Positions 2,184 to 21,320 of a stretch of DNA of 45,680 nucleotides are shown here, piece after piece; the stretch's first letter is position 1; the number at the start of each line of letters is the position of its first letter. The translations under genes were made by a program, and so were the position numbers. The notes beneath the pieces were generated by a model. That model was not told the DNA's origin. It saw only the letters and a list, made by a program, of their open reading frames with translations, and ran no database searches. The stretch is from Clostridia bacterium. GTDB taxonomy: Bacteria; Bacillota; Clostridia; Oscillospirales; CAG-272. The DNA is taken from positions 1-45,680 of the forward strand of contig JAFWAA010000054.1 of assembly GCA_017507905.1 (NCBI GenBank), given 5' to 3'.

Positions 2184-2197
2184 TTTCCGTCGCCGCC

Positions 2198-3553
2198 TTA
2201 TTCGAGAATGTCGGTCAGATCGTCAAAGTTTTTGTGCGTCGTAACGACGATGACGTTATCGCCAAGCTGGATGCAATCGTTACCGTTCGGGATAATGACC
2301 TCATTCTCGCGAATGATGCAAGCAATCAGACAGTTTTCCTTGAGCCTGAGCTCCTTCAGGGGCTTGTTGTAGATGCGCTCGGGCTTCTTTGCGTAAAACT
2401 CCAGGGCCTCGACCTGATCGTTGACCAGACGGTAGAGCGTAAGCACGTTACTGCCCCTCGTATTCGCAAGAGCGCGTATATAGCTGATGATGCGGTTGGC
2501 CACGATGCTCTGCGGAGAGACGGTGTTTTCATTGCCAAGCTCGTCCAGCATTCCCACAAGGTCGTCGCTCTTGATCTGCGTGATGGTCTTTTTGACCTTC
2601 ATTTTGTTGGCAAACATCGTAACGACCATGTTTTCCTCGTCGATGTCGGTCAAGGCAACGAAAGCGTCCATGGCCTCGATGCCCTCCTCAATGAGCAGAC
2701 CGTGCCGCGTTCCGTTTCCGTGGATCACGGTTACACGGGGAAGCTCGCTTGCCAGCGCCTCTGCCGCGTTGCGATCGCTTTCGATCAGCTTGATCTTATA
2801 CTTCTTTTTGGAAAGCTCATTGGCAAGATAGTAGCCGAGTCGGCTGCCGCCAACGATCATAATATTCTTCAGCGGAGACTTGACCAGATTGACCTCTGCC
2901 AAAAAATCGCGCAGGGACTTTGCATCCGAGGTAAGATAGATCCTATCCCCCTCCTCGATCACGAAGTTACCGGTAGGAATGGTCACGCTCTGTCCTCTCT
3001 GCACGGCGCAAAGCAGGACCTTGGTCTTCAGCTTTCGGCCGAGCGTGATCAGCGTCTCGCCGATCAGAGCGCAGCCCTTTTCCGCAACGATCTCCACGAG
3101 CAGAACTCTGCCCTTGGCAAAATGCTCGACCTGTGCGATCGAGGGCAGGTTGATGAGGTTGAAGATCTCGGCGGCCGTATCCTGCTCGGGATTGACGATC
3201 ATCGAGATGCCAAGCTCGTCCTTCATGTCCAGGATCTGCTTTCGGTAATCGGGATTTCGGACGCGGGCGATGGTATTCTTTACCCCGTTCTTCTTGGCAA
3301 CGAGACAAGCAAACACGTTCAGCTCATCGCTGTTGGTCAGCGCGATCACCAGATCCGCCCCCTTGGCCCCTGCTTCCTTTTGAATATCCAGGCAGGCACC
3401 GTTGCCAACGACGCCCGAAACGTCATATCGCTCGATCAAGCCCTCGACCTTATCCTTATCCTCATCGATAATGATCATGTTATGGCCTTTTCCGGACAGA
3501 CTTTTCAGTATGGTCTTGCCGATCGTGCCAAGACCGATGATAACAATTTTCAT
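2198..3553 (-). CDS. trkA: TrkA, regulatory subunit of potassium uptake
   Basis: This 451-residue cytoplasmic protein has two tandem RCK units, each a Rossmann domain followed by a TrkA-C domain. The first starts at residue 1 with a nucleotide-binding G-L-G-T-I-G motif and an acidic I-I-D-E-D strand end. The second begins near residue 230 with I-V-G-G-S-R-L-G and L-I-E-S-D. TrkA binds NAD(H)/ATP and gates the TrkH channel. TrkA-C domains in Firmicutes can also bind cyclic di-AMP, which I cannot judge from sequence alone. The ATG at 3553 has TTGGAGA seven bases upstream. It is the first gene of the trkA-trkH operon and is divergent from a cation:proton antiporter, together forming an ion-balance module. 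Confidence 0.95.
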   Translation of the reverse strand: MKIVIIGLGTIGKTILKSLSGKGHNMIIIDEDKDKVEGLIERYDVSGVVGNGACLDIQKEAGAKGADLVIALTNSDELNVFACLVAKKNGVKNTIARVRNPDYRKQILDMKDELGISMIVNPEQDTAAEIFNLINLPSIAQVEHFAKGRVLLVEIVAEKGCALIGETLITLGRKLKTKVLLCAVQRGQSVTIPTGNFVIEEGDRIYLTSDAKSLRDFLAEVNLVKSPLKNIMIVGGSRLGYYLANELSKKKYKIKLIESDRNAAEALASELPRVTVIHGNGTRHGLLIEEGIEAMDAFVALTDIDEENMVVTMFANKMKVKKTITQIKSDDLVGMLDELGNENTVSPQSIVANRIISYIRALANTRGSNVLTLYRLVNDQVEALEFYAKKPERIYNKPLKELRLKENCLIACIIRENEVIIPNGNDCIQLGDNVIVVTTHKNFDDLTDILE

Positions 3554-7508: not shown

Positions 7509-8669
7509 ATGTATGCTCTTTTACTGTCTCTGATCTACCTCGCCTTTATCAGCCTCGGGCTGCCCGATTCCCTGCTTGGCGCAGGCTGGCCTGCCATGCA
7601 CGCCGAATTGAATCTGCCCGTTTCCTATATGGGTGTCATCTCCATGGTGATCTCGGGAGGCACGATCCTCTCCAGTCTCCTCTCGGATAAGCTCACCCGC
7701 AAGCTGGGCACGCCGATGGTGACCGTGCTGAGCGTGCTGCTCACCGTGCTTTCGCTCTTTGGCTTTTCCTTTTCCACAAGCCTTTGGATGCTGCTCCTCT
7801 TTGCCGTTCCCTACGGTCTTGGCGCAGGCGCGATCGACGCCGCGCTCAACAATTACGTTGCCCTGCATTATAAAGCGCGCCACATGAGCTGGCTACACTG
7901 CTTTTGGGGTGTGGGCGCGATCATCAGCCCCTTTATCATGGGATATGCCCTGACCGGACGCGGCTGGCCCTCGGGATACCGCACCGTCGGCTTTCTGCAG
8001 CTGGGGATCCTGCTTCTCCTGCTTCTCACCCTTCCCGTCTGGCGTATCCATAAGGCGCAGGCGCTTGAGGGACAAAAAAGCCTCGGGCTTCTTGCCGCTT
8101 TGCGGATCAAGGGAGTGCCCTTCCTGCTGCTCGGCTTCTTTGCCTACTGCGCGGCGGAGGCGACCGCCATGTACTGGGCAAGCACCTATTTTGTGCAGGT
8201 CAAGGATCTTTCCGCCGAGCTTGCCGCAAATCTTGCCTCCTTGTTCTACATTGGAATTACCCTTGGACGCTTTCTCTGCGGCTTTATCACCGACCGCTTG
8301 GGCGACCGCCGCATGATCCTGATCGGCACGGGAGTGCTGACCCTTGGCATTCTCACGCTCCTCCTTCCCTTCGAGTCCCCCAAGATCGCCTCTGCGGCCT
8401 TCGTGGTGATCGGCTTTGGATGTGCGCCCATTTATCCCTGCATCATTCATTCCACGCCAAGCAACTTTGGCGCAGAAAATTCGGGCGCGATCATCGGCAT
8501 TCAGATGGCCAGCGCCTACCTTGGATCAACCTTTATGCCTCCGCTCTTCGGTCTGCTCGGCAATCTCATCGGCTTTTCGATCCTGCCGATCTTTCTTCTC
8601 GTCTTCGTGGTGCTGATGGTCACGATGACGGAGCTGACCTTTGCCGCAACGAAAAAGAACACCCACTAA
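7509..8669 (+). CDS. Major facilitator superfamily transporter
   Basis: This is a 386-residue integral membrane protein with about 12 hydrophobic segments in two halves. It shows MFS patterns: G-L-P-D-S-L-L-G-A-G-W-P in the first helix, the loop 2-3 motif L-S-D-K-L-T-R-K-L-G, G-L-G-A-G-A-I-D-A-A-L-N in helix 4, and F-L-C-G-F-I-T-D-R-L-G-D-R-R in the second half. The shape resembles FucP/sugar and small-solute MFS proteins, but the substrate cannot be told from sequence. The ATG has GGAGGAA eight bases upstream. The gene has its own promoter and a strong terminator, so it is a single-gene unit, divergent from the threonine aldolase gene. Confidence 0.85.
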   Translation: MYALLLSLIYLAFISLGLPDSLLGAGWPAMHAELNLPVSYMGVISMVISGGTILSSLLSDKLTRKLGTPMVTVLSVLLTVLSLFGFSFSTSLWMLLLFAVPYGLGAGAIDAALNNYVALHYKARHMSWLHCFWGVGAIISPFIMGYALTGRGWPSGYRTVGFLQLGILLLLLLTLPVWRIHKAQALEGQKSLGLLAALRIKGVPFLLLGFFAYCAAEATAMYWASTYFVQVKDLSAELAANLASLFYIGITLGRFLCGFITDRLGDRRMILIGTGVLTLGILTLLLPFESPKIASAAFVVIGFGCAPIYPCIIHSTPSNFGAENSGAIIGIQMASAYLGSTFMPPLFGLLGNLIGFSILPIFLLVFVVLMVTMTELTFAATKKNTH

Positions 8670-8679
8670 GCAAGGCCTT

Positions 8680-8711
8680 GGCCACTGCCGACACGGCAGT
8701 GGCCTTTTTTC
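8680..8711 (+). terminator. Rho-independent terminator after the MFS gene
   Basis: GGCCACTGCC pairs perfectly with GGCAGTGGCC around a 5-base loop and is followed by six T residues. Confidence 0.9.
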
Positions 8712-8743
8712 TCTCCCCCCAGCCGCTGATGGCAAAAAAGAGA

Positions 8744-8787
8744 GGCTCGGATCTGCCGCAGATTTGCGGCGGATCCGAGCCTTTTTT
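8744..8787. terminator. Bidirectional terminator, mainly for the DUF3899-like gene
   Basis: GGCTCGGATCTGCCGC (8744-8759) pairs with GCGGCGGATCCGAGCC (8766-8781) with one mismatch. There is a six-T run on the plus side and an A-run on the other side that gives T residues on minus. It backs up the MFS terminator and ends the converging minus gene. Confidence 0.85.
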
Positions 8788-8790
8788 CCG

Positions 8791-9216
8791 TCAGGCGGAT
8801 ACCGTATAAAAGTTCAAATACCAAACGACCGTCAGAATGATTCCGGTAAGCAGGAAAAGCAGACCGACAACGAGAAGGCTGCTGTCCCCCGGCTTCTTTT
8901 TCTCGCCAAGCTTACGCTCGCGGTACTGCGCGTAGGTCTCCTGATACTTTCTTCCCATCGGGACGAAGATCAGCGCCACGCTGCGCATCACAAAGCCGAT
9001 ACCGATCAATGCACCCTCGCTGCTGACGAACAGCATGCCTGCAAAAAGCAGGAGCAAAATGCCCGAAACCGAGAAGCCGTCCGAAAGGATCTGGAGGTTG
9101 ACTCCAAGATCGCTCGTGAAAAAGCCTCTGACCCAGAACACGACAAACGTGATCAGCGAAGCAACGCCAAAGCAAATGCCGTATTTGATTAAACGTGACC
9201 GTATTTCGTCTCTCAC
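8791..9216 (-). CDS. Small membrane protein, DUF3899-like
   Basis: The 141-residue protein has four hydrophobic segments (about 9-30, 45-65, 67-87 and 115-138) and a charged loop Q-Y-R-E-R-K-L-G-E-K-K-K between the last two. Length, segment spacing and the G-F-F-S/T-S-D followed by a L-S-D-G-F-S-V-S-G-x-L motif recall the DUF3899 family of Firmicutes; this family call is from memory of the pattern. Function is unknown. The start is a GTG at 9216 with a modest AAGGGA upstream; no ATG gives the full first helix. A 54-base gap separates it from the opp operon upstream on the same strand, and I saw no terminator between them, so it may be the distal end of that transcript. Confidence 0.7.
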   Translation of the reverse strand: MRDEIRSRLIKYGICFGVASLITFVVFWVRGFFTSDLGVNLQILSDGFSVSGILLLLFAGMLFVSSEGALIGIGFVMRSVALIFVPMGRKYQETYAQYRERKLGEKKKPGDSSLLVVGLLFLLTGIILTVVWYLNFYTVSA

Positions 9217-9270
9217 CGCTATTTTCCCTTCGTTTCGTAAATTTACCGTTTTCCGTCCTCGGGCTGATGC

Positions 9271-10719
9271 TTACATCGAAAGAATAGCAACGATCAGAGC
9301 AACGATGCCGGAGATCACGGCAGAACCGAGGATCGTAGATGCGATCGAAGCGATGCGCAGCTTTCTCTCGAGCGCTCTGAAGCGATTCTGCTTTGCCACG
9401 GGCATAGCCACGGGAGTGGCGGCCACGGGAATGCTCTTTTCGGTCTTGACGTATTCTCTTCCCTCGTACTCAGCGAGATAACGCTCATACTCCTCGGAGT
9501 TGCAAAGCACCATGTGTCCGGGAGCGATCTCACGGAAGGTGGGCTGCTCCACGGAGTAATCGTGCGCCTGCAGAGGATTGTAGGTCTCGCGCTCTCTCTG
9601 CTTCTCATACACCGGGTCGGGCAGAGGAATGGCCGAAAGAAGCGATCTCGTGTAGGGGTGGATCGGATGGCGGAAGAGCTCATCCGAATCGGCAAGCTCA
9701 ACCATCTTACCAAAGTACATAACGCCGATTCTGTCCGAGAAGTACTTGACGACGGAAAGGTCGTGCGCGATGAAGAGAATGGTCAGACCGAGACGGTCTC
9801 TCAGATCGTTGAGCAGGTTGATGACCTGCGCCTGGATCGACACGTCAAGCGCGGAGATCGGCTCGTCGGCGATCAGCATCTCGGGCTGCATAATAACGGC
9901 TCTCGCGATACCGATACGCTGTCTCTGTCCACCCGAGAACTCGTGCGGATAGCGGTCTGCGTGCTCGCGCACAAGACCGACCATCTCGAGGATCTCGTAA
10001 ACCTTCTCGTTGATATACTCCTTATCGGTGATGCCCTGAATGATCAGGCCCTCTGCGATGATCTCGCGGACCGTCATACGGGGGTCGAGCGACGCGATGG
10101 GATCCTGGAAAATCATCTGGATCTGCGTGATCAGCTGTGCCCTCTTGGCCACGCGGCTTCTGATCTTGAACTCCTTGCGGAGTGCCTTAAGCTTTTGGGG
10201 ATCGTTCTCTGCCGCCTTAAGCTTGGGGGCGTATTCCTCCTCCAGAGCCTTGAGCAGAGCCTCGGAGTAGCGGCGGTCAACGGCCTTGGTATTGCCCTTG
10301 GCCTCGCGAATCAGCTGCTTGTTCTTCTGTATGATTTCAGCGAGCTGGCGGTCGATCTCATCGATCCGCTTCTTATACTCCTTTGCCTTTTCGGGCTCGG
10401 CGTAGCTTGCCTCGATCAAACGGTCAATGCGGATATCTGCATCCTCGCGGGCCGCCTTGATGGCGTCCTTGTAGGAGCGCGTGCCGGCACCGATTCTCTC
10501 GCCCTTGAAGTAGACGTTGCCCGAGGTGATGTTGTAGAGTCGGATGATGGAGCGGCCGGTGGTGGTCTTTCCGCATCCGGACTCGCCAACAAGGCCAAAG
10601 GCCTCACCCTTGCGGATCTCGAAGTTGACGTCGTCTACCGCCTTCAGGTCCTTGCGTCCCAAACGGAAATACTGACAAAGATGGTCAACCTTTAACAAAA
10701 CATCATTCTGCTGCTTCAT
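9271..10719 (-). CDS. oppF: Oligopeptide ABC transporter ATPase OppF-like, with internal helical insert and C-terminal membrane anchor
   Basis: One of two ATPase subunits of a peptide importer. ABC motifs: Walker A G-E-S-G-C-G-K-T (45-52), Q-loop Q205, signature S-G-G-Q-R-Q (262-267), Walker B M-L-I-A-D-E-P (281-287), H-loop His319, then the H-P-Y-T-R-S-L-L oligopeptide C-terminal motif. Two things are unusual. About 110 charged, helix-prone residues (80-190) are inserted between Walker A and the Q-loop, where a normal OppF has only a short link. After the usual end, residues 400-456 form a P/V/A-rich linker and 457-480 a single hydrophobic helix, so this ATPase may be tethered to the membrane. 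Length is 482 against about 310-330. The start overlaps the end of oppD by 17 bases, with GGAGG inside oppD. Confidence 0.9.
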
Positions 10720-12946
10720 TGCTGTTGCCTCCTCTCTCCTTCATTCGCTTGATGCGCTCGGTAATGATCTTGGGGATCTCTACCTTGGGTGCGTTGGGGT
10801 GGAGCAGCCAGGTTGCCGCATAGTGCGTGGGCGAAACCTCGTACATCGGCGGCTGCATTTCAAAATCGATCTCCATGGCATACTTGTTTCTCTCCGCAAA
10901 GGCGTCGCCGACCGGCGGATAGATCATGTTCGGAGGAGTGCCGGGAATGGCATCCAGCTTCTCGTTGGTGTCAAGGTCAGGCATGGAGGAAAGCAGTGCC
11001 CAGGTGTAGGGGTGCTGCGGATCGTAGAAGATGTCGTTTGCGGTGCCGTATTCCACGATCTTTCCCGCATACATCACGGCGATACGGTCTGCCATGTTGG
11101 CCACGACGCCAAGGTCGTGCGTAATGAAGATGATGGACAAATTGTGCTCGCGCTTGAGTCGGTTGATCAGCTCCAGGATCTGTGCCTGAATGGTCACGTC
11201 AAGCGCGGTGGTGGGCTCGTCGCAGATCAGAATGTCGGGGTTGGCCGACAGAGCGATCGCGATAACGATACGCTGGCGCATACCGCCCGAGAACTCGAAG
11301 GGATACTGTCTGAAACGGATTCTGGCCTCGGGAATACCGACCTCCTCCATCAGCTTGATCGCCTTCTCCTTGGCAATACGCTTGGTCAGCGTGTAGACGA
11401 CCTGCGAAGCCTTTTCCTTGAGGTAGTCGATCAGCTCGACGCAGCGCTTCTCCAGATCCACGCTTGCGGCGCTTTCCACGTCGGCACGGAACCTGTTCAT
11501 GACGCGCGTCATGACCGAAACGATGGTCTCGATCTGCTTTTCGGGCTCGATTACCGACTTGGGAACGACCTTCCAGTCAACCGTCTTGCCCTTGGCCAGG
11601 AGTGCCTCTCTCTTCGCCGTCTGACGGGCAAAGCGTGCCTCCTCCTTGGGATTGTTCTTCAGGTAGAAGAAGTATTTTTCCACTTCTCTTTCCAGCGCGC
11701 TTCCAAAGGTGTAGGCCACGTTGTCCTTGATCACCGCAAGGGGATCGATCGCGGCGCGCACCTTACGGTTTACGCTCTTGCAGGCAGCAGCCGCGCTCTG
11801 CGCGGTAAATCCGCCCGCCTTGAAGAAGTCGATGGTCTCCTGCAGCGCGACGATCGCCTGCTGCTTGTTGGCCAGCGTCTTCTTGAAGGAATACTCTACG
11901 GCGATGCGCTCCAGACGTCTGAAGGCGGCCATGTAGTCCTCCGTGAGGAATTGAAGCGCCATTTCGTTGGCTTCCTCGGCAGGCATGGTGCTCAGGTCTG
12001 CGTCGGGGTGCTTGGTCAGATAATAACCAATGCGGAAGAAGTTGTACTGGGGCTGCTCGAGCATCTCCTCGACCGTTTGCTGAATGGCCGTGAGGACCTC
12101 AGCGGTACGCGCGGAAGCATCCTTGCGAATGGTGGTCATGGTGACGACCTTCTTGATCGAGTCACCGAGTGTTACCTTTGCACGCTCCTCCTTCAGTACT
12201 GCGCTCAGCGCCTCCATATGGGCGTTGAGGACGGTCGCGTATTGAGCGGCAAAATACTTGTCGCCTGCGGCGTCCTGCAGCTTGTGGGCAACCAGCTTCA
12301 GCGAGGCAACGGCATCCACCTTCTGTCTCTTTTCCGTGAGGAAAAGGAAATCCTTGATGGTGGCGATCATTTCCTCTGCTGCGGTGCGTGCGGCGTTGTA
12401 GCTGTTCTCCAGCTTGATGGCCTGAATGTTGAAGTTGTCGAAGGTCCTGATATAGCCGTCAACGTCCTCAACGGAGAATTCGCTCTGTGCGGTGTGCGCA
12501 AGAGCCTCCTTCATCAGATCGGAGAGTGCGGCAAGCGTCTTGTTGAAGGTTACGCGGCCCTCCTTGCGGTTGGCCTTGTTCTTCAGCAGCATTGCCTCGG
12601 TGATCTGCTTACCGATGCGCATGATCGGGTTGAGCGAGGAGAGCGGATCCTGGAAGATCATGGCGATCTTGTCACCGCGGAGCTTGTGCATTTCCTCCTC
12701 GGGAATACGGAGCAGGTCCTGGCCGTCATAGAGGATCTCGCCGCCCTCGCAGATGGAGTTTACGGCAGAAATTCCCATGATCGCCTTGGACGTAACCGAT
12801 TTTCCGGAGCCCGACTCACCAACGATCGCCAGGGTCTCGCCCTTGTAAAGATCGAAGGAGATATCGCGCACGGCCTGCACCTTTCCGGCGTCCGTGCGGA
12901 AGGACATTCTCAGGTTATTTACGGATAATTTTACTTCTTTACTCAT
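10703..12946 (-). CDS. oppD: Oligopeptide ABC transporter ATPase OppD-like, with insert of about 390 residues
   Basis: The second ATPase subunit, 747 residues against the usual 320-350. Walker A G-E-S-G-S-G-K-S (43-50), Q-loop Q99, signature S-G-G-M-R-Q (553-558), Walker B I-L-I-C-D-E-P (572-578), H-loop His610 and the H-P-Y-T-W-A-L-L motif are all intact, so it should hydrolyse ATP. Between residues about 128 and 520, exactly in the helical subdomain between Q-loop and signature, lies a long charged segment rich in A, K, E and L, predicted all-helical and without a domain I recognise. The cysteines that usually follow the H-P-Y-T motif in DppD/OppD (G-C-x-F-x-x-R-C) are replaced (D-A-F-A-E-R-N), so the iron-sulfur site described in some relatives is absent. 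It starts three bases after oppC, with GGAGG in the oppC end. Confidence 0.92.
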   Translation of the reverse strand: MSKEVKLSVNNLRMSFRTDAGKVQAVRDISFDLYKGETLAIVGESGSGKSVTSKAIMGISAVNSICEGGEILYDGQDLLRIPEEEMHKLRGDKIAMIFQDPLSSLNPIMRIGKQITEAMLLKNKANRKEGRVTFNKTLAALSDLMKEALAHTAQSEFSVEDVDGYIRTFDNFNIQAIKLENSYNAARTAAEEMIATIKDFLFLTEKRQKVDAVASLKLVAHKLQDAAGDKYFAAQYATVLNAHMEALSAVLKEERAKVTLGDSIKKVVTMTTIRKDASARTAEVLTAIQQTVEEMLEQPQYNFFRIGYYLTKHPDADLSTMPAEEANEMALQFLTEDYMAAFRRLERIAVEYSFKKTLANKQQAIVALQETIDFFKAGGFTAQSAAAACKSVNRKVRAAIDPLAVIKDNVAYTFGSALEREVEKYFFYLKNNPKEEARFARQTAKREALLAKGKTVDWKVVPKSVIEPEKQIETIVSVMTRVMNRFRADVESAASVDLEKRCVELIDYLKEKASQVVYTLTKRIAKEKAIKLMEEVGIPEARIRFRQYPFEFSGGMRQRIVIAIALSANPDILICDEPTTALDVTIQAQILELINRLKREHNLSIIFITHDLGVVANMADRIAVMYAGKIVEYGTANDIFYDPQHPYTWALLSSMPDLDTNEKLDAIPGTPPNMIYPPVGDAFAERNKYAMEIDFEMQPPMYEVSPTHYAATWLLHPNAPKVEIPKIITERIKRMKERGGNSNEAAE

Positions 12947-12948
12947 GC

Positions 12949-14532
12949 TTACTCCTCCGATCCTCTGAGCGAGGGGTTGAATGCGTCACGCAAGCCGTTT
13001 CCGAACAGGTTAAAGCTGAGCATTAACAAGACGAGGAACAGGCAGGGGAATGCGGCTACGTAGGGCGCAAACATAATGTCTCGCTGTCCTGCGGCGATCA
13101 TGGTACCGACACTGGTGATGTTACCGTGCTCGAGGTTGATGATGCCGAGGTAAGACAGGTTGGTCTCCGAATAGATCATGGACGGAATGACCAGTGCGAA
13201 GCGGGTAACGATGGTACCAAGGCCGTTCGGGAAGATATGCTTGAACATAATTCTTCTGTCACGTGCACCGAGCGTTCTTGCCGCCAGAACGTACTCCTGG
13301 TTCTTAAAGCGGTAGAACTGCATACGCGTTGTTCCCGCCATACCGATCCATCCTGTTAGGAAGAAGGAAATAAATAGGATCAATACGTGGGTCGATGAGC
13401 CCATGTGGTATTTCAACAGCGTAATGACGATCATGGAAGGAACCGAACCGAGAATCTCGGAGAAGCGCTCCATGAACAGGTCGATCTTACCGCCAAAGTA
13501 ACCCGAGATGGATCCCCAGATCACACCGACGATAAAGTTGGATACGGCAACGACGGTAGCAAAGATAAAGGAGAATCTTGCACCGTTCGAAAGGCAAGCA
13601 AAAATATCCTTACCCTCGGAGGTGGTGCCGAAGATAAAGTTCGGCTCCTCGATGCCGTCCTTAAGCAGCTGGGTATGCTTGTAGGTGTAGTACTCATAGT
13701 AGTCAGCTCTGACCTCAACGCCGCCAACCACCTTCTGTCCGTAGACGTAGAAGTACTGCTTGTCGCCCTTCATAAAGCCGTCCTCACCCTCGATTCTCAT
13801 CTTCGAGGTGTAATCGGCGGCAAGACCGGAGGTGGAGCCAGCAGCCATCTCCCAATAGTTGATCTGCAGATCGCCGTTCTCGTCATAAACGGGAACGGTC
13901 TTTCCGCCCTTATCCTTTTCGGTCTTGTAGTAGAAGTTTGCATTGTCCTTATCCTGCGTTGCCTCGGGTCTTGCCCAGGGAGCAACCGTCGGATAGAGAA
14001 CCTGGCGTCCGGTCTCGTCCTGATATCTCTGGATATCCAGATATTCCTCATTGGAGATAATGCGGTACTTTCCAAAGCCAACGCCGTAATAGGTGTTGTA
14101 GCGATAGGTATACAGCGTGCCGTCCTCGCTCACCGTATACTCGCCGCGCTTGATCACGTCCTTGCCCGTCTCCAGACCAAGAGCGTAATCCTGCAGGAAG
14201 GCGCGGTAACCGACCTCCTTCACCTTGCAGCCGTCCCAGAAATCCCAGCCCAGCTTCTCTGCCAGGGGGAGCTTCGGGCTCGTGGTGGCGTACAGCTTGT
14301 CGGTATACGAGGGGCTATACGGCGTGCAGAAGGGGGCGATAATGGCAAACAGGATCAGCAGGGCGATAACGATACCGCCAACCACGGCTCCCTTGTTCTT
14401 GCAGAAGCGGCGGAACGCATCCTGAAAATAGCCAACGGGCTTGGTGCTGAGCTTGCTGTCGTGGCTGAGGGTGCGCTTCGCAAACTGAAACTTTTCTGCG
14501 GGGATATTTGCATACATATTCGTCTTTTCCAT
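12949..14532 (-). CDS. oppC: Oligopeptide ABC transporter permease OppC-like, with large extracytoplasmic insert
   Basis: One of two membrane subunits; 527 residues against about 300. The N-terminal cytoplasmic tail is followed by TM1 (about 48-68). Then come about 230 polar, Tyr/Asp/Lys-rich residues (75-300) before the conserved F-G-T-T-S-E-G-K-D-I-F motif (301-311), which normally follows TM1 after only a short loop. The rest is typical: five more membrane segments and the EAA coupling loop E-Y-V-L-A-A-R-T-L-G-A (413-423) followed by K-H-I-F-P-N, where the ATPase docks. The insert should face outside, next to the binding protein. The gene starts three bases after oppB; its Shine-Dalgarno site is weak, so coupling is likely. 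Confidence 0.92.
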   Translation of the reverse strand: MEKTNMYANIPAEKFQFAKRTLSHDSKLSTKPVGYFQDAFRRFCKNKGAVVGGIVIALLILFAIIAPFCTPYSPSYTDKLYATTSPKLPLAEKLGWDFWDGCKVKEVGYRAFLQDYALGLETGKDVIKRGEYTVSEDGTLYTYRYNTYYGVGFGKYRIISNEEYLDIQRYQDETGRQVLYPTVAPWARPEATQDKDNANFYYKTEKDKGGKTVPVYDENGDLQINYWEMAAGSTSGLAADYTSKMRIEGEDGFMKGDKQYFYVYGQKVVGGVEVRADYYEYYTYKHTQLLKDGIEEPNFIFGTTSEGKDIFACLSNGARFSFIFATVVAVSNFIVGVIWGSISGYFGGKIDLFMERFSEILGSVPSMIVITLLKYHMGSSTHVLILFISFFLTGWIGMAGTTRMQFYRFKNQEYVLAARTLGARDRRIMFKHIFPNGLGTIVTRFALVIPSMIYSETNLSYLGIINLEHGNITSVGTMIAAGQRDIMFAPYVAAFPCLFLVLLMLSFNLFGNGLRDAFNPSLRGSEE

Positions 14533-14535
14533 AGT

Positions 14536-15543
14536 TTATTTTGCCCCCATTCGAATTCTCGGGTCGATGAAGCCGTAGCTGATATCGAGAACGATACCCG
14601 CCGTCAGGCTGATCAACGTGTAGAAGCCGGACAGCAACATAAAGAAGTCGTAGTCCTGGAAGTTGATCGAGTTGAGGTACAGTCCGCCAACGCCGTTGAT
14701 CGAGAACATATTCTCAATGATCAGCGAGCCGGAAAGAACGCCAATAAACTCAGCCAGGATCGAGGGGAAGATAACGACCATCGAGTTGCGCATAGCGTGT
14801 CTCAGCACGGCTTGGCTCTTGGTCAGACCCTTGGTTCTGGCAAGCAGCATGAATTCACTCGTCAGCACCTCCGAAAGCTCGGCACGCGTACCGCGCGCAT
14901 AGCCCGCGATCGAACCCAAGCTGAGCGCGAACACGGCCGGAAGCATGGAATGGAATACAGGCCACGTGAAGTAATCGTTGCTTGTTTCCATCTGTATTGG
15001 GAACCAGTTCAGCTTGAAGCAGAAGATATACTGGATCAAGAGGCCGAGAATAATCGAAGGAACGGAGATCAAAAGAATGATGAAGATGTTGATCGCCTGG
15101 TCCTGCCACTTATTCTTCTTGAGCGCGGCAAAAATACCGAGAGCCAGTCCGATCGGCACACCGAACAGCGTAGAATAAATGTTGATCAGGATCGTGGGAG
15201 GCAGATGGTCCACGAACACCTCCCAAACGGGCATGTTCAGGTACTCACCGTAGGTGGTGGCAATACCGAAGTCCCACTGGGTGACGATCCTCTTGGCATA
15301 GTTCACGAGCTGGAGCAGGATCGGAACGCGCTCATAGAGGAAGGTTCCGTTCGGTCCCGGGCGGACGTTGCAGATCCAACCTCTTCCCTCCAGACGCTTG
15401 TAAGCGATCAGGGGGTCCTCGTTGGGTGCGATGTTGACCTGAATCGGCAGGAGCTTGATGAGAATAAAGCACATCACGATGATGATCGTGAAGGTAAACA
15501 GCATCAGCCCGAGACGCTTCATCACATATTTAAACATATACAT
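14536..15543 (-). CDS. oppB: Oligopeptide ABC transporter permease OppB-like
   Basis: The 335-residue permease has TM1 at about 9-31 and an outside loop of about 75 residues. The D-F-G-I-A-T-T-Y-G motif and five further membrane segments follow. The EAA loop E-F-M-L-L-A-R-T-K-G-L (227-237) precedes R-H-A-M-R-N-S, and the sequence ends with the usual D-P-R-I-R-M. It is close to the standard OppB size, unlike its partners. The ATG at 15543 has GAGGAG about nine bases upstream; a second in-frame ATG lies six bases later. The 232-base gap to oppA upstream contains two RNA hairpins, so the binding protein is probably made in excess over the membrane complex. Confidence 0.92.
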   Translation of the reverse strand: MYMFKYVMKRLGLMLFTFTIIIVMCFILIKLLPIQVNIAPNEDPLIAYKRLEGRGWICNVRPGPNGTFLYERVPILLQLVNYAKRIVTQWDFGIATTYGEYLNMPVWEVFVDHLPPTILINIYSTLFGVPIGLALGIFAALKKNKWQDQAINIFIILLISVPSIILGLLIQYIFCFKLNWFPIQMETSNDYFTWPVFHSMLPAVFALSLGSIAGYARGTRAELSEVLTSEFMLLARTKGLTKSQAVLRHAMRNSMVVIFPSILAEFIGVLSGSLIIENMFSINGVGGLYLNSINFQDYDFFMLLSGFYTLISLTAGIVLDISYGFIDPRIRMGAK

Positions 15544-15616
15544 AAGGTTTTACTCCTCTGTCTGGTTATTTTCCTCATTCAGTAAAGAACAATAAGCCAT
15601 TCAATACGGCATCGGT

Positions 15617-15652
15617 AAAAAGGGCGCAATCGCGCTGTTTTGGCAGCGCGCC
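15617..15652 (-). terminator. Possible partial terminator between oppA and oppB
   Basis: On the minus strand CGCGCTG pairs with CAGCGCG (15631-15650), and a competing GGCGC/GCGCC pair lies outside it. CTTTTT follows at 15617-15622. The pairing alternatives and the 8-base gap before the T-run suggest incomplete termination that would lower oppBCDF relative to oppA. Confidence 0.45.
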
Positions 15653-15709
15653 GTATGTCATTTGTTTGTTGTGGTATGTTTCCCTCGCGGGGGGGTAGAC
15701 TGCAAATCA

Positions 15710-15739
15710 GCGGTGAGCGAAAGGAATTTCGCCCACCGC
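15710..15739 (-). other. Stem-loop just downstream of oppA
   Basis: On the minus strand GCGGTGGGCGAAA pairs with TTTCGCTCACCGC around a 4-base loop, with one G-U pair and no T-run. It sits about 36 bases past the oppA stop codon. Such hairpins often protect the upstream message from 3' exonucleases, as after malE and other binding-protein genes. Confidence 0.65.
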
Positions 15740-15775
15740 ATCGTTTAGGGTTTAGTAATCTTTAAGGGTAAAGAA

Positions 15776-18442
15776 TTACTCGGTCTTCTTGTACTCGTTG
15801 GTCAGGTCGCGGTTGTTCGCTCTGAGGAACTCCTCCCACTCACCGTCCGAATAGTTGACCTCAAGGTATCTCATACCGCCGAAGCCCATGAAGGTGTTGT
15901 AGGACTCGGTGAAGAAGTGAGAGAACTTGGGGCTCAGGAAGGAGCCGGAGTAGTCACCGATCAGCATTACGGAACGGCTTTCCTTAATAACAACTTCCTC
16001 AAGAGCAGCCAGGATGGTCAGTCTTACGCTTGCAGGAGCGTAGCCGGCATCCCAGTTGTAGGTCTTCTCCTGCTCCTTCTCGGCGCCAAGGCCGTTGAGG
16101 CAGAAGAACCAGTTCTGAACGCTCATGGTGATGGTCTCGCCGGCTGCCTCGTAGTCACCCTCGGGCATGGTGAGAGTCATGTCGATAACGGAGGTATCCC
16201 AGTAAGCGTGATAGTTCAGAGAATCGTCGGGATCGACGAATGCACCGATGATATCAAAGGGATTGAAGGGGTTACCGGAGAAGCCGTAACCAAAGCCGAT
16301 CTGGGTGTCACCGTTACGGAATGCATCTGCCCACTTGGAGCCTGCGGATGCATCGAACTTGATCTCGATCTGGCCCTGGAGAGCGGTGCCCTCGATCAGG
16401 GTGTTGATCACGTTCTGGAGGTACTCAGCTCTCTCACGCTGCTTAGCGTTGTCAACGGAAGAACCGTAAACGAGAGTGATCTTCTTGGAAGAATCGTAGC
16501 CGTACTCCTCAGCGTTCTCGGTGAGGATCTTGATGGCCTCAGCCATGGTGGTCTTTGCGAGAGTGGGGTTGTAGCCGGTCAGAGCGTAGCAAGCCTCCTC
16601 GAAGGAAAGGCCGGTCAGCTCGCCGCTGGACCAGGTGCCGTCCTCGGCCTCAACGAAGCCGTAAGCGCGGAGCAGACCCTCCTTAGCCTCAACGGTGTTA
16701 CGGTAAACACCACCGTCAGCGAGGTTAGGAGAATTCTCGATGTCGTAGTAGTACTCGGAGTTAACGAGACCAAGGCAAGGAGTGGAGGTACCGGGCCAGA
16801 TCTTCTCAACGATGTCGCTTCTGTTGAGAGCGAGGTTGAGAGCCTGTCTGAACTCCTTGATTGCCAGGATACCGTTGTTGTTCTCGCTTCCCTTCAGGAC
16901 ATTGAGGTCGCTGAAGAGCTGCATGCCGAACGTACCGGTGGAGGGAGTGTAGGAAACGTACTTGGAGTTCATGTACTCAGCGATGTTCTCGCTTGCCAGG
17001 CTGGAATCGTCGTAGTTACCGGCCAGGAAGCCCATCCACTGGGTTGCGAACTCAGAAACCTTACGGCAGTAGATAGCGGAAACGTTGTACTGGTTCTTGT
17101 ACTCGTCCATTGCGTAGCCGTACCAGTTCTCGTTCTTTGCGAGCTTGTAGTGAGAGCCTGCCTCAAACTCAACGAGCTTGTAGGGACCCCAGCTTGCAGT
17201 GGTCTCGAGAGAGGAGTTGTAGTTAGAGGTCCACAGGGTTGCGCCCTCAGCGGGAGCGATCTTGCAAGCCTCGTACTTAGTCTGGTGAACGAGGGGAAGG
17301 CTGGACATGTAGTAAGCAGCCAGGTAGGACAGAGAACCGTCCTCCATCAGGAAGGCGTATGCCTTATCGAGGCAGACAACGATTGCGTTCTCGCCCTCGA
17401 CAGCGTACATACCAACGGTGTTCCAATCCACCTCATCGCCGTAGCCGGAGAGGTAGAACAGAGCCTCCTTGAAGAGCTGCTCCTGCTCCTCAGCAGACAT
17501 GGTGCTCCAGTCAAGGCCGAAGGGCATCAGAGCGTAAGCGATCAGCTGCTTAGCAGCCTCCATGTTCTCCTCGTTGATCAGCGCGTAGCCGAACTCGTTC
17601 TCGGCGTCAGCGATAACCTTCAGAACAGCCTTAGCCTCTGCCGTGCCAACGTAGTTGTTGATCAGCTCCTCGAGAGAGTAGCCGGCAAGGGTCATACCGG
17701 TGGTGGTGGTGTTCAGGTAGTAATCAACATCGCCGTTCAGGTCGAAGGAGTAATCGGGAGTATCACCCTCGCCATATGCGGGAACGATGGGAGAATAGAT
17801 GGGAGCTCCGGAGTAGAAGTATGCTCTGGAGTTCTTAATTCTCAGGGTATCGTAGTAGGTGTTGGCACGCATGTTCATGAAATCGGGATCCAGCATTGCC
17901 TGCATGGAGTACACGAAATCAGCAGCGGTGATGGCCGTACCGTCGTCCCACTTCAGGTCGTTACGGAGAGTGATCTTCCAAGCATAGCCGCCCTGTGCCT
18001 TCTGATCCTCAGTGTAGCCCCACTTTGCATCAACGGTGGAGGTGACGTCCTCCAGCTTGGTTGCTGCAGAGTAGTTGGTGGTGTAAGCACCCAGTACGAT
18101 GGCATCCTTGTTGATGGTGCCGTCTGCGTTGTACTTCGCGTCACCCTCGAACTTGTAGTCATAGTCGAAGAAGGAAGAACCGATGTAGCTCATAATCTGA
18201 GTATCGTTGTTATCAGCGTAGGTCAGCTCGTTCCAGTTACTGGGCATGGTGCTCGTCGTGGTGTTGTACGTTACACGGTTGTAAGCGTCGGGATCGATCG
18301 GGGGGAGAGTATCCGTCGGATCGGTCTCGGTGGGATCGGTCTCTACGGGATCCACAGGGTCTTTATGACAACCTGCGAACACAGCAGCAACCATCACCAA
18401 GCACAGCACGAGCGCGAGCAAGGATTTGAGATTCTTGTTCAT
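15776..18442 (-). CDS. oppA: Oligopeptide-binding lipoprotein, OppA-like, unusually large
   Basis: This is the substrate-binding protein of the Opp importer. From the ATG at 18442 (GGAGG seven bases upstream) it is 888 residues; typical members have 520-620. The N-terminus is a lipoprotein signal: M-N-K-N-L-K, a hydrophobic core and V-F-A-G-C, with Cys25 lipidated. An acidic P/D/T linker (about 29-55) follows. The SBP_bac_5 family is shown by W-K-I-T-L-R-N-D-L-K-W-D-D-G near 165-180 with the T-A-A-D-F-V-Y-S helix behind it, and by the E-F-R-Q-A-L-N-L-A-L-N-R motif in the second half. The extra length is spread through inserts between these blocks. First gene of oppABCDF. The bound peptide class is not predictable; a nutrient or signal peptide is inferred from the family. 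Confidence 0.92.
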   Translation of the reverse strand: MNKNLKSLLALVLCLVMVAAVFAGCHKDPVDPVETDPTETDPTDTLPPIDPDAYNRVTYNTTTSTMPSNWNELTYADNNDTQIMSYIGSSFFDYDYKFEGDAKYNADGTINKDAIVLGAYTTNYSAATKLEDVTSTVDAKWGYTEDQKAQGGYAWKITLRNDLKWDDGTAITAADFVYSMQAMLDPDFMNMRANTYYDTLRIKNSRAYFYSGAPIYSPIVPAYGEGDTPDYSFDLNGDVDYYLNTTTTGMTLAGYSLEELINNYVGTAEAKAVLKVIADAENEFGYALINEENMEAAKQLIAYALMPFGLDWSTMSAEEQEQLFKEALFYLSGYGDEVDWNTVGMYAVEGENAIVVCLDKAYAFLMEDGSLSYLAAYYMSSLPLVHQTKYEACKIAPAEGATLWTSNYNSSLETTASWGPYKLVEFEAGSHYKLAKNENWYGYAMDEYKNQYNVSAIYCRKVSEFATQWMGFLAGNYDDSSLASENIAEYMNSKYVSYTPSTGTFGMQLFSDLNVLKGSENNNGILAIKEFRQALNLALNRSDIVEKIWPGTSTPCLGLVNSEYYYDIENSPNLADGGVYRNTVEAKEGLLRAYGFVEAEDGTWSSGELTGLSFEEACYALTGYNPTLAKTTMAEAIKILTENAEEYGYDSSKKITLVYGSSVDNAKQRERAEYLQNVINTLIEGTALQGQIEIKFDASAGSKWADAFRNGDTQIGFGYGFSGNPFNPFDIIGAFVDPDDSLNYHAYWDTSVIDMTLTMPEGDYEAAGETITMSVQNWFFCLNGLGAEKEQEKTYNWDAGYAPASVRLTILAALEEVVIKESRSVMLIGDYSGSFLSPKFSHFFTESYNTFMGFGGMRYLEVNYSDGEWEEFLRANNRDLTNEYKKTE

Positions 18443-18613
18443 GATGTTTCCTCCATAAAAATTTTGGATTATTATTTCATTACCCGCAAAATCACTTTCC
18501 TTACAACGCCCACGCAAACGCAAGCATCATAATCTCCGCAACGGCCGCCCCTGCGGCTAACATTGAGGCCTCCGCCGGAAGAAAGAAAACTGTACGAATA
18601 TATGAATACAAAT

Positions 18614-18642
18614 ATTATAGCACACAGAACTCGGGTTGTCAA
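18614..18642 (-). promoter_or_regulatory. Consensus sigma-A promoter of the opp operon
   Basis: Perfect TTGACA (18637-18642) and TATAAT (18614-18619) with a 17-base spacer on the minus strand. The predicted leader is about 165 bases. It contains a small GCCGC/GCGGC hairpin near 18545 but no riboswitch I recognise. Confidence 0.9.
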
Positions 18643-18826
18643 TGTTTTTGTTACAAAAAAATCGCATATTTTTTCACATTTTCTTTATTTATTTATAAAT
18701 TAAGGAAAAATTCAAGCCAAAGCCGCCGCGATCCTTTCATCCGCTAAAATTTTGTCCGCTTTGGTTTTCCTCCCGCCGTCCACGCCTCCCATCGCTCCTC
18801 CGTTTTGCCGCTTTTTGCAAAAAACG

Positions 18827-18840
18827 AATGAATATTCATT
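18827..18840. promoter_or_regulatory. 14-bp palindrome upstream of the opp promoter
   Basis: AATGAATATTCATT is a perfect palindrome in the otherwise featureless stretch 18643-18873 between the opp promoter and the nrdD terminator. It lies about 190 bases upstream of the opp -35 box. It does not match the ArgR or CodY consensus; it may be chance in AT-rich DNA. Confidence 0.25.
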
Positions 18841-18873
18841 TTTCTATGCATTTTCCCTTCCCTGCCAAAGGCG

Positions 18874-18911
18874 AAAAAAGCCTCCCCCGACGCCAAAGCG
18901 TCGGAGGAAGC
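18874..18911 (-). terminator. Rho-independent terminator after nrdD
   Basis: On the minus strand GCTTCCTCCGACGC pairs with GCGTCGGGGGAGGC with two G-U pairs and is followed by six T residues, 20 bases past the nrdD stop codon. Confidence 0.9.
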
Positions 18912-18930
18912 TCTCGTCTTTTGGAGTGGC

Positions 18931-20550
18931 TTATGCGTTGATCATTCCCTTGATCTCGGCCACGCCAACGTATTTCTGTGCGTTTCCGCCCTTGGCGACC
19001 ACGAGCGTGGGAGCCTGACGGATGCCAAATTCCTCTACCTGTGCGGGATATTGGCTGGCCAGACGCTTCTCGTAGGCGATGCCTGCCTTATCCAGCATTG
19101 CGGCTGCGATCTTGCAGTTGGGGCAGGTCTCGGTGGTAAAGAGCCATACGCCCTCCTCTGCGGTGGCGGCGGGAGCAGCCTCGTTGCAAGCGCAATCGGG
19201 ATGGAGAACGCCCGTATGCGTCAGCTTGGAATTCTCCACGTCGTAGACCTTGCGCTCCTTGTACTCCTGCGCCTTACCGTCGTTCCAGTTCTGCACGGGG
19301 CGGTAGTAGCCGGTGATGCGGCTGTATACCTCGGTGGTCGCACCGCACTCGGGGCACTCAAAGTGCTCGCCCGAAATGTAGCCGTGCTTCTTGCAGACCG
19401 AGTAGGTGGGAGACATGGTGTAATAGGGGAGCTTGTAGTTCTCCGCGATCTTGCGGACGAGGGATGCGGCAGCCTTCCAGTCGGGCAGCTTCTCGCCAAG
19501 GAAGGCGTGGAAGACCGTTCCGGAGGTGTAAAGCGTCTGCAGCTCGTCCTGAATATCCAACGCGGTGAAGATATCGTCAGTATAGTCGACCGGCAGGTGG
19601 GAGGAGTTGGTGTAGTAAGGCGTTCCGCCCTTCTTGGTTGCGGCGTGAATGATGTCGGGATAGAGCTCCACGTCGTGCTTTGCCAGACGGTAGGAGGTGG
19701 ACTCTGCGGGGGTTGCCTCGAGGTTGTAGAGGTCGCCGTACATCTCCTGATAGTCGGAGAGGCGCTCGCGCATATGGTTGAGGACCTCCTTGGTGAACTC
19801 CTGCGCGCTCTCGTGCGTCAGATCTTCGCGGATCCAGTTGGCGTTGAGGCAGGCCTCGTTCATGCCGACAAGACCAATGGTGGAAAAGTGATTGCTGAAG
19901 GTGCCGAGGTATCTCTTGGTGTAGGGATACAGGCCGTTGTCGAGCAGACGGGTGATGACCGTGCGCTTGATCTTGAGCGATCTTGCGGCAATGTCCATCA
20001 TCTTGTCCAGGCGGGCGTAGAAATCCTTGCGGTCGGTGGCAAGGTACGCGATGCGGGGCATATTGATGGTAACCACGCCGACCGAGCCCGTGGACTCGCC
20101 GCTTCCGAAGAAGCCGCCCGACTTCTTGCGCAGCTCGCGCAGGTCAAGGCGCAGACGGCAGCACATGGAGCGAACGTCGCTCGGCTCCATATCGCTGTTG
20201 ATGTAGTTGGAGAAATAGGGCGTGCCGTATTTCGCCGTCATCTCAAAGAGGAGCTTGTTGTTCTCGGTCTCGCTCCAGTCAAAGTCGCGCGTAATGGAAT
20301 AGGTAGGAATGGGATACTGGAAGCCGCGGCCGTTGGCGTCACCCTCGATCATGATCTCGATGAAGGCCTTGTTGACCATGGCCATTTCCTTCTCGCAATC
20401 CTTATACTTGAAGTCGACCTCCTTGCCGCCGATGATGCAGTTCTGCTCGGCGAGGTCCTTCGGAACCACCCAGTCCAGCGTGATGTTGGAGAAGGGTGCC
20501 TGCGTGCCCCAACGGGAAGGCGTATTCACACCGTAAATGAAGGACTGCAC
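18931..20550 (-). CDS. nrdD: Anaerobic ribonucleoside-triphosphate reductase NrdD, C-terminal part after a frameshift, with glutaredoxin-like tail
   Basis: This frame holds the catalytic barrel and glycyl-radical domain of class III ribonucleotide reductase, which reduces NTPs to dNTPs without oxygen. Visible in order (numbered from the GTG at 20550): S-F-I-Y-G-V-N-T-P-S-R-W-G-T-Q-A-P-F (3-20), the M-C-C-R region (129-132), a zinc site with Cys386 and C-P-E-C (399-402), and the glycyl-radical motif R-I-T-G-Y-Y (Gly414). After a C-A-C (453-455), residues about 465-539 form a glutaredoxin/NrdH-like domain with C-P-N-C (476-479), the cis-proline motif Q-A-P-T-L-V-V and a K-Y-V-G strand. The reading frame really continues upstream to about 20573 and joins the N-terminal part there; one base is missing. 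The GTG has no ribosome site, so it is not a true start. Confidence 0.93.
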   Translation of the reverse strand: MQSFIYGVNTPSRWGTQAPFSNITLDWVVPKDLAEQNCIIGGKEVDFKYKDCEKEMAMVNKAFIEIMIEGDANGRGFQYPIPTYSITRDFDWSETENNKLLFEMTAKYGTPYFSNYINSDMEPSDVRSMCCRLRLDLRELRKKSGGFFGSGESTGSVGVVTINMPRIAYLATDRKDFYARLDKMMDIAARSLKIKRTVITRLLDNGLYPYTKRYLGTFSNHFSTIGLVGMNEACLNANWIREDLTHESAQEFTKEVLNHMRERLSDYQEMYGDLYNLEATPAESTSYRLAKHDVELYPDIIHAATKKGGTPYYTNSSHLPVDYTDDIFTALDIQDELQTLYTSGTVFHAFLGEKLPDWKAAASLVRKIAENYKLPYYTMSPTYSVCKKHGYISGEHFECPECGATTEVYSRITGYYRPVQNWNDGKAQEYKERKVYDVENSKLTHTGVLHPDCACNEAAPAATAEEGVWLFTTETCPNCKIAAAMLDKAGIAYEKRLASQYPAQVEEFGIRQAPTLVVAKGGNAQKYVGVAEIKGMINA

Positions 20551-21302
20551 GCACTGCTTGACTTCCTTATAGTAAGGTTGTCGATCTTTACGAAGGGAGC
20601 AAGGTAGGTATCAAAGGAGGAGAATGCCTGCGCGCCCGCCCACTCGTTCTGCATGATGCCAAGGAAGTTGACCATCTGGTTGCAGAGGGTGGAGAGGTGA
20701 GATGCGGGAGCCGAGGTGATCTTTCCGGGAACACCGCCAAGGCCCTCCTGGATCAGCTGCTTGAGCGACCAGCCTGCGCAGTATCCGGTAAGCATGGAAA
20801 GGTCGTGAATGTGGATATCGGTATTCTTGTGTGCATTGGCGATCTCGTCGTCATAGACCTCGGAGAGCCAGTAGTTTGCCGTGATGGCACCGGAGTTGTG
20901 CAGGATCAGACCGCCCACCGAATAGGTAACGGTGGAGTTCTCCTTGACGCGCCAATCCAGAGCCTTGACGTACTTGTTTACAATGTCCTTATAGTCCAGC
21001 ATGGTCGCGCTGATGTTGCGCACCTTTTCACGCTGGCGGCGGTAGAGAATGTATGCCTTGGCAACGTCGTCGTAGCCTGCCTTGATCAACACGCTCTCCA
21101 CGCTGTCCTGAATGCTCTCGACCGTTATGGTGTCGTTCTCGATCTTCTCGGTAAAGTCTGCGGTGACCTTCAGGGCCAGAAAATCGATCACATCGGGGTT
21201 ATACTGCTTTTCACAGGCGTCAAACGCCTTGGTGATCGCCTTGCTGATCTTGGAAAGATCGAAGGAGACCCGCTTTCCGTCTCTCTTAATTACCGTATAC
21301 AT
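20526..21302 (-). CDS. nrdD: Anaerobic ribonucleoside-triphosphate reductase NrdD, N-terminal part before a frameshift
   Basis: The first 244 or so residues match NrdD: an ATP-cone (V-I-K-R-D-G-K-R-V-S-F near 4-14, through the I-L-Y-R-R-Q-R-E-K block) that senses ATP/dATP, then the start of the barrel with H-N-S-G-A-I-T-A-N-Y-W, H-I-H-D-L and W-A-G-A-Q-A-F-S-S-F-D-T-Y. After D-N-L-T the frame goes wrong and stops at 20526. Adding one T after position 20571 (minus strand) gives T-Y-K-E-V-K-Q-C-V-Q-S-F-I-Y-G and joins the next frame without loss. So the gene is one nrdD of about 790 codons with a one-base deletion, either a sequencing/assembly error or a recent mutation. I chose the ATG at 21302 because AGGAG lies six bases upstream; the ATG at 21308 is too close to it. 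Confidence 0.93.
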   Translation of the reverse strand: MYTVIKRDGKRVSFDLSKISKAITKAFDACEKQYNPDVIDFLALKVTADFTEKIENDTITVESIQDSVESVLIKAGYDDVAKAYILYRRQREKVRNISATMLDYKDIVNKYVKALDWRVKENSTVTYSVGGLILHNSGAITANYWLSEVYDDEIANAHKNTDIHIHDLSMLTGYCAGWSLKQLIQEGLGGVPGKITSAPASHLSTLCNQMVNFLGIMQNEWAGAQAFSSFDTYLAPFVKIDNLTIRKSSSACSPSFTV

Positions 21303-21320
21303 AAACATCTCCTATCGTAA

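Follow-up and report, generated by a model that had tools for sequence, protein, structure and literature searches.

Oligopeptide importers of the oppABCDF type are driven by two related ATPases, OppD and OppF, and the locus described here raises the question of what a segment of about 395 residues is doing inside one of them. The locus lies in contig JAFWAA010000054.1 of a Clostridia bacterium (assembly GCA_017507905.1; contig 46 of 63 in a 1.6 Mb draft genome), whose 45,680 nucleotides are hereafter called the window, and its oppA-B-C-D-F operon spans 18442 to 9271 on the minus strand. The stretch between the Q-loop and the signature motif, where the segment is located, lies at the ATPase–permease interface, for which strong constraint is expected, and yet the segments found there differ while the core is about 80% identical. 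We found that the OppD insert is accompanied by an insert in OppF, and such paired inserts suggest a built-in clamp or regulator, a feature that the Escherichia coli importers lack. With a probability of a little under 0.4, we propose that the two inserts form a cytoplasmic helical clamp that tunes closure of the nucleotide-binding domains and ATPase coupling, or the assembly of OppD with OppF.

The gene families of the operon were assigned by Pfam. Membership of the window OppD in the OppD/DppD-type importer ATPases was indicated by its ATP-binding cassette (ABC) core motifs, its oligo_HPY domain, and its oppABCDF context. ABC_tran matched the protein in two separate stretches, and oligo_HPY (PF08352) was found at residues 631–692 with 51.5 bits, against a cut-off of 27.1. 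An earlier annotation made from the nucleotide sequence, here called the sequence-only reading, had described the catalytic motifs as intact, and this was borne out: Walker A, the Q-loop, the signature, Walker B (ILICDEP), and the H-switch residue H610 all aligned with those of E. coli OppD and DppD, with which the protein shared 50 and 42% identity, respectively, over aligned residues. The gene order was that of E. coli OppABCDF and DppABCDF, whereas E. coli OppD/DppD and OppF/DppF are without the inserts present in the window proteins. Since OppD/DppD-type ATPases have an insert-free helical subdomain and the window OppD carries about 395 extra residues there, we filed it as a variant; it is an OppD/DppD importer ATPase with one feature changed.

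Alignment with E. coli OppD, in which residues 136 and 137 are adjacent, placed the insert at about residues 125–519, and its length agreed with the earlier estimate of about 390 residues; the boundaries were taken from local alignments and may be in error by a few residues. It starts 5–8 residues past E117, the permease-contact residue by alignment with DppD E114, so that its predicted closeness to the permease held. The E. coli DppBCDF study (PMC12136057) reports that DppD E114 and DppB K243 form a salt bridge. The insert is no artefact of assembly or reading frame, because all 80 loci kept from other assemblies, out of 128 confirmed relatives, carried the insert. The relatives were searched with peptide patterns derived partly from the insert, and the set therefore favours insert carriers and is not a fair sample.

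Insert length was 369–407 residues across 52 aligned proteins, and in 21 more distant relatives among these the identity to the window was 80% in the core and 37% in the insert. The ratio of nonsynonymous to synonymous substitution rates (dN/dS) was 0.09–0.38 for the insert in five of eight pairs, the rest being saturated, and at most 0.035 for the core. For the best-conserved stretch, residues 401–465, it was 0.02–0.18, below that of the whole insert in all five computable pairs. The insert is thus under purifying selection, yet diverges far faster than the core. Of the conservation check proposed in the sequence-only reading, recurrence in many genomes and selection were found, whereas the insert proved much less conserved than the rest of the protein.

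Alignment-averaged hydrophobicity of the insert peaked at a period of 3.65 residues (2.43; the highest value among 100 shuffles was 1.64), and proline and glycine were scarce (7 and 9 in 399 residues, respectively), suggesting that the insert is mostly helical. No credible relative was found for it among PHROGs (best E 0.42) or, by profile, among PDB sequences (best E 0.17). When 47 insert-bearing members were scanned against Pfam and NCBIfam, 103 and 41 families, respectively, matched weakly, and these were taken as chance; among the best 25 of each, the most widespread was PAH_ZNF598 (6/47 members, best E 0.0027), and the lowest E values were those of FCH (0.00093, one member) and KaiC (0.00025, two members). 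A known domain in the insert was accordingly rejected, and the earlier remark that no domain is recognizable stood. No description of such an OppD insert was found in the accessible portions of the open-access literature. A plasmid search with OppD returned no record covering 80% of the protein among the best 5000 matches.

C-terminal regulatory domains of the ABC importer ATPases MetN and MalK inhibit or activate uptake, and the sequence-only reading had put forward the sensing of a cytoplasmic ligand. In a comparable scheme, a metabolite or peptide of the cytoplasm would bind to the insert, and uptake would be inhibited or activated as a result. Its location beside the permease contact would permit such control. 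However, no known ligand-binding domain was matched, and highly charged, unrelated inserts occupy the same site in sister lineages, as described below; a ligand sensor is therefore quite improbable. Overall, the earlier observation is confirmed and its interpretation partly supported.

The sequence-only reading had described the insert of OppD. This insert proved real, but OppD is not alone in being enlarged. Inserts in OppD and OppF occurred together in 97 of the 97 loci where both were measurable, the OppF inserts being 46–180 residues long. These loci (L numbers are our locus labels) comprised 78 of the 80 kept relatives and 19 others (L152–L167, L169, L170, and L208), 18 of which, all except L208, had their OppD on the core tree described below. 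The count excluded L030 (split OppF), L066 (no OppF on a short contig), L206 (OppD incomplete, OppF insert of 160 residues), and L203 (no OppF found). Both inserts were missing in L199–L201, the operons of the insert-less OppDs L173–L175, in the outgroup operons L202 and L205, and in ordinary OppD/OppF pairs inside L076 and L077. The corresponding OppF link was 8 residues in L199–L201, L202, and L205. OppC had 200–333 extra residues in 72 measured of the 80 kept loci and 180–598 in 19 others, compared with 70–73 in L199–L201 and 8 and 37 in L202 and L205; this segment is, by inference, extracytoplasmic.

Two further observations concern these proteins. Locus L211 (open reading frames 552–2087 and 2087–3151) had a shrunken pair, with an OppD insert of 171 residues that is without the conserved NPKEEARFARQ...GKTVDW block and an OppF insert of 55 residues. 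At the C-terminal extension of the window OppF, residues 462–480 (9280–9336, minus strand) had a mean hydropathy of 2.57 over 19 residues and are a possible membrane anchor; an OppF of the same length, 482 residues, occurred in L050, and the OppFs of the remaining kept loci had at most 458 residues.

Distances among operon parts were compared in 56 complete operons of 81 (25 incomplete ones were left out), with the four core distances regressed out and 2000 permutations. The OppD-insert and OppF-insert distances correlated at 0.32, and at 0.29 after thinning to 52 operons, with 0/2000 permutations as high. The OppC ectodomain correlated with OppA at 0.38 (0/2000), and the OppD insert with the OppC ectodomain at 0.11 (162/2000) and with OppA at −0.10 (1776/2000). 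This pattern is consistent with joint evolution of components that share a side of the membrane.

From these results, we suggest that the OppD insert would be a folded, mostly helical add-on, grown from the loop that follows the first helix in the helical subdomain, that adjoins the permease contact and goes along with the insert between Walker A and the Q-loop of OppF. When two ABC ATPases dimerize, each presents its signature arm to the Walker A arm of its partner; for this reason the two inserts would be expected to meet on one side of the dimer, flanking the composite site that OppF Walker A forms with the OppD signature. A cytoplasmic clamp there would set the ease with which this site closes and so tune ATPase coupling, or, alternatively, would hold the OppD–OppF dimer together, and the transporter is otherwise predicted to work as an ordinary binding-protein-dependent oligopeptide importer. 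This site is the equivalent of the DppF nucleotide site: according to PMC12136057, E. coli DppBCDF without DppA held nucleotide only in DppF and had essentially no ATPase activity. If the clamp exists, these operons are a natural experiment on the control of unequal ATP sites in a heterodimeric importer, and the strain-named carrier Acetivibrio ethanolgignens ACET-33324 (L072) makes it testable.

The position of the insert, the invariable pairing, the core-tree clade, the correlation of 0.29, the shrunken pair of L211, and the dN/dS of the insert count in favour of the clamp. Several points weigh against it. Its fold and the contact between the OppD and OppF inserts are predicted from sequence and not from a structure. 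Four OppDs with other insert arrangements (L168, L171, L204, and L207) had a partner OppF that is insert-free at this site, which indicates that OppD can carry an insert without OppF doing so. The lengths of the two inserts were unlinked (OppD 335 with OppF 75–80 residues; OppD 233 with OppF 174), and no more than one or two events may underlie their joint presence. The permutation test leaves shared ancestry in the correlation, and part of it may be general co-divergence, since the OppF insert also tracked the OppC ectodomain (0.19, 4/2000) and OppA (0.16, 33/2000) weakly.

Different inserts occupied the same site in relatives. Among 247 genomes from the class of L073 (Acholeplasmatales; the class is presumably Bacilli), over-long OppD frames were frequent among the matches listed, and 50 loci were read: 23 (L102–L124) had about 175–284 extra residues before the Q-loop, seven (L125–L131) had none, and 20 (L132–L151) had 126–373 at the site of the window insert. 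The last group was fetched for its long frames and therefore says nothing on frequency. L133, L134, L137, and, more distantly, L135 matched the window insert profile (E 4e-75 to 2e-20), and the best of the remaining site-sharing inserts was that of L146 (E 0.0095). The other type, found in 15 OppDs (L132, L136, L138–L148, L150, and L151), was 126–335 residues long, with a charged content of 38–55% in 14 measured inserts and a hydrophobic period peaking near 2.2, not 3.5–3.6. These charged-insert OppDs resembled the window OppD in core clade and insertion site, and the 14 whose operon was fetched had an OppF insert as well. A common origin of the two types was rejected, as profile comparison gave no match (probability 0.1); the high score of the cc1-cc2 profile comparison included 15 core residues per side and was set aside. 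Hence, at least two kinds of insert without detectable kinship, one of 350–407 residues and highly charged ones of 126–335 residues, are found at one site.

In the core-only OppD tree (74 rows; 10 near-duplicate Mycoplasma-type rows were left out of the trees, and this, the second of them, took in 13 of 26 loci from the insert-neutral search described below), the 23 window-type OppDs formed one clade with support of 97/95. They belonged to a 41-row clade (100/99) with the 15 charged-insert and three insert-less (L173–L175) OppDs, in which the deepest branching was unresolved. A single clade of the 38 insert-bearing rows was not rejected by the approximately unbiased test (p-AU 0.43). Forcing L149 into a clade with them was rejected (p 5e-33); as its insert shares their site, this site was, within the present sample, put to use on two or more occasions. 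The L149 insert (operon L168) measured 144 residues, lay after the Q-loop outside the clade, and was without an OppF insert.

Such variability is what would be expected if helices had been gained without function and kept for the stability of the complex, as in constructive neutral evolution: lengths of 126–407 residues and differing content are seen at one site that was also used elsewhere in the tree, the insert diverges far more than the core, and OppC is enlarged as well. We nevertheless consider such drift unlikely, in view of the conserved block and narrow length range of the window type, a dN/dS well below 1, and the pairing with the OppF insert.

A docking platform that recruits a cytosolic partner, such as a peptidase, the ribosome, or a regulator, and so channels peptides or reports uptake, would be consistent with a long domain bearing a conserved charged stretch (residues 432–463) on what is by inference the cytoplasmic side, and with fast, surface-like evolution. 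However, among open reading frames of at least 150 codons, no partner gene was found beside the operon, and the most widely shared family outside it occurred in no more than 9 of 100 loci, although short flanks were frequent among these loci. Together with the replacement of one insert by unrelated ones, which is awkward for one specific partner, this argues somewhat against such a partner. Docking also leaves the accompanying OppF insert unexplained, and we regard it as doubtful. No RNA family reached its gathering score in positions 8000–20000.

Kinship with the enlarged ATPases of Mycoplasma had been left open by the sequence-only reading. The best NCBIfam matches of the whole window OppD and OppF were NF043079 (MMSYN1_0167, OppD) and NF043078 (OppF), which we take by name to be Mycoplasma mycoides families, with scores of 466.4 (cut-off 740) and 391 bits (cut-off 800), respectively, both below the cut-off. 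However, the 23 Mycoplasma-type OppDs read have their insert before the Q-loop, the window insert alone gave no match to NF043079, and Mycoplasma-type inserts matched the window insert profile with E 0.056 or worse. Kinship was therefore rejected. The OppDs of L196/L204, L117, L118/L171, and L119, one of which (G142) is in the window's class, had about 236–246 extra residues before the Q-loop and, with the standard code, were free of in-frame stops, indicating that inserts at this position also occur outside the genomes that read TGA.

The window OppD differs from the E. coli importer ATPases also in missing their C-terminal [4Fe-4S]-binding cysteines, and E. coli DppBCDF falls apart without these cluster cysteines, according to PMC12136057. 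A replacement of the clusters by the inserts as dimer glue was rejected as the specific cause, because the insert-less L173, L076, and L077 are likewise without the cysteines.

Rad50/SMC/RecN and UvrA, which act on DNA, likewise have an ABC ATPase core whose halves are separated by a long insertion, and the insertion site of the window OppD is reminiscent of theirs. The window core is instead that of a peptide-importer ATPase, nothing related to the insert was found, and a weak SMC_N match of Pfam (residues 38–626, 24.4 bits) was below its cut-off of 40. A more tentative and on balance unlikely reading is that these operons represent a distinct class of peptide importers, in which matched inserts of the two ATPases would flank one ATP site on the cytoplasmic side as an asymmetric, exchangeable clamp for regulation or assembly of the motor, the SMC/UvrA insertion site having been reused to control transport. 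The window itself contains uvrA (25289–28132, minus strand), whose product is likewise an ABC ATPase with a core interrupted by inserted domains.

The insert profile was run against overlapping sets of genomes and matched one genome, the window's own, among 398 sampled across the phylum, 40 among 146 of the family, and 26 among 197 of the order. Each positive genome had one match in a single frame of 669–765 residues, except for one with two pieces in a 528-residue frame. As a counterweight, the C-terminal part of OppD alone, which is neutral to the insert, was searched in 249 genomes across the phylum, with a strong match in 24; of the 26 loci read from this search besides the window, 25 were insert-free and L196 had the pre-Q-loop kind. 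This result indicated that the insert is uncommon phylum-wide and concentrated near the window's order. It is present in a number of gut bacteria, most named records being metagenome assemblies. The features of the locus are collected in Table 1.

Table 1. Features of the window, with positions on the 45,680-nucleotide stretch
Feature	Position	Strand	Description
OppF	9271..10719	minus	482-residue ABC ATPase; ABC_tran and oligo_HPY; start overlaps end of oppD
OppF insert	10138..10485	minus	residues 79–194, between Walker A and Q-loop; missing in E. coli OppF/DppF
OppD	10703..12946	minus	747-residue ABC ATPase, ATG start, insert-bearing; ABC_tran and oligo_HPY (Pfam)
OppD signature (SGGMRQ)	11273..11290	minus	residues 553–558; aligned with E. 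coli OppD/DppD
OppD insert	11387..12583	minus	residues 122–520 as used; about 125–519 against E. coli OppD
Best-conserved insert stretch	11552..11746	minus	residues 401–465; contains KDNVAYTF and NPKEEARFARQTAKREALLAKGKTVDWKVVPK
OppD E117	12596..12598	minus	counterpart of E. coli DppD E114 (permease contact) by alignment; the same in all of 52 sequences
OppD Q-loop (FQDP)	12644..12655	minus	residues 98–101; aligned with E. coli OppD/DppD
OppD Walker A (GESGSGKS)	12797..12820	minus	residues 43–50; aligned with E. coli OppD/DppD
OppC	12949..14532	minus	527-residue permease; BPD_transp_1 and OppC_N (Pfam)
OppC extra segment	13648..14298	minus	about residues 79–295, between N-terminal transmembrane domain and permease domain
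OppB	14536..15543	minus	335-residue permease; BPD_transp_1 (Pfam)
OppA	15776..18442	minus	888-residue solute-binding protein; SBP_bac_5 (Pfam)
NrdD, remainder	18931..20550	minus	with glutaredoxin-like tail
NrdD, N-terminal part	20526..21308	minus	frame with ATP-cone

Elsewhere in the window, the anaerobic ribonucleotide reductase NrdD (18931–21308, minus strand) was split over two overlapping frames, which reflects a frameshift or an assembly error.

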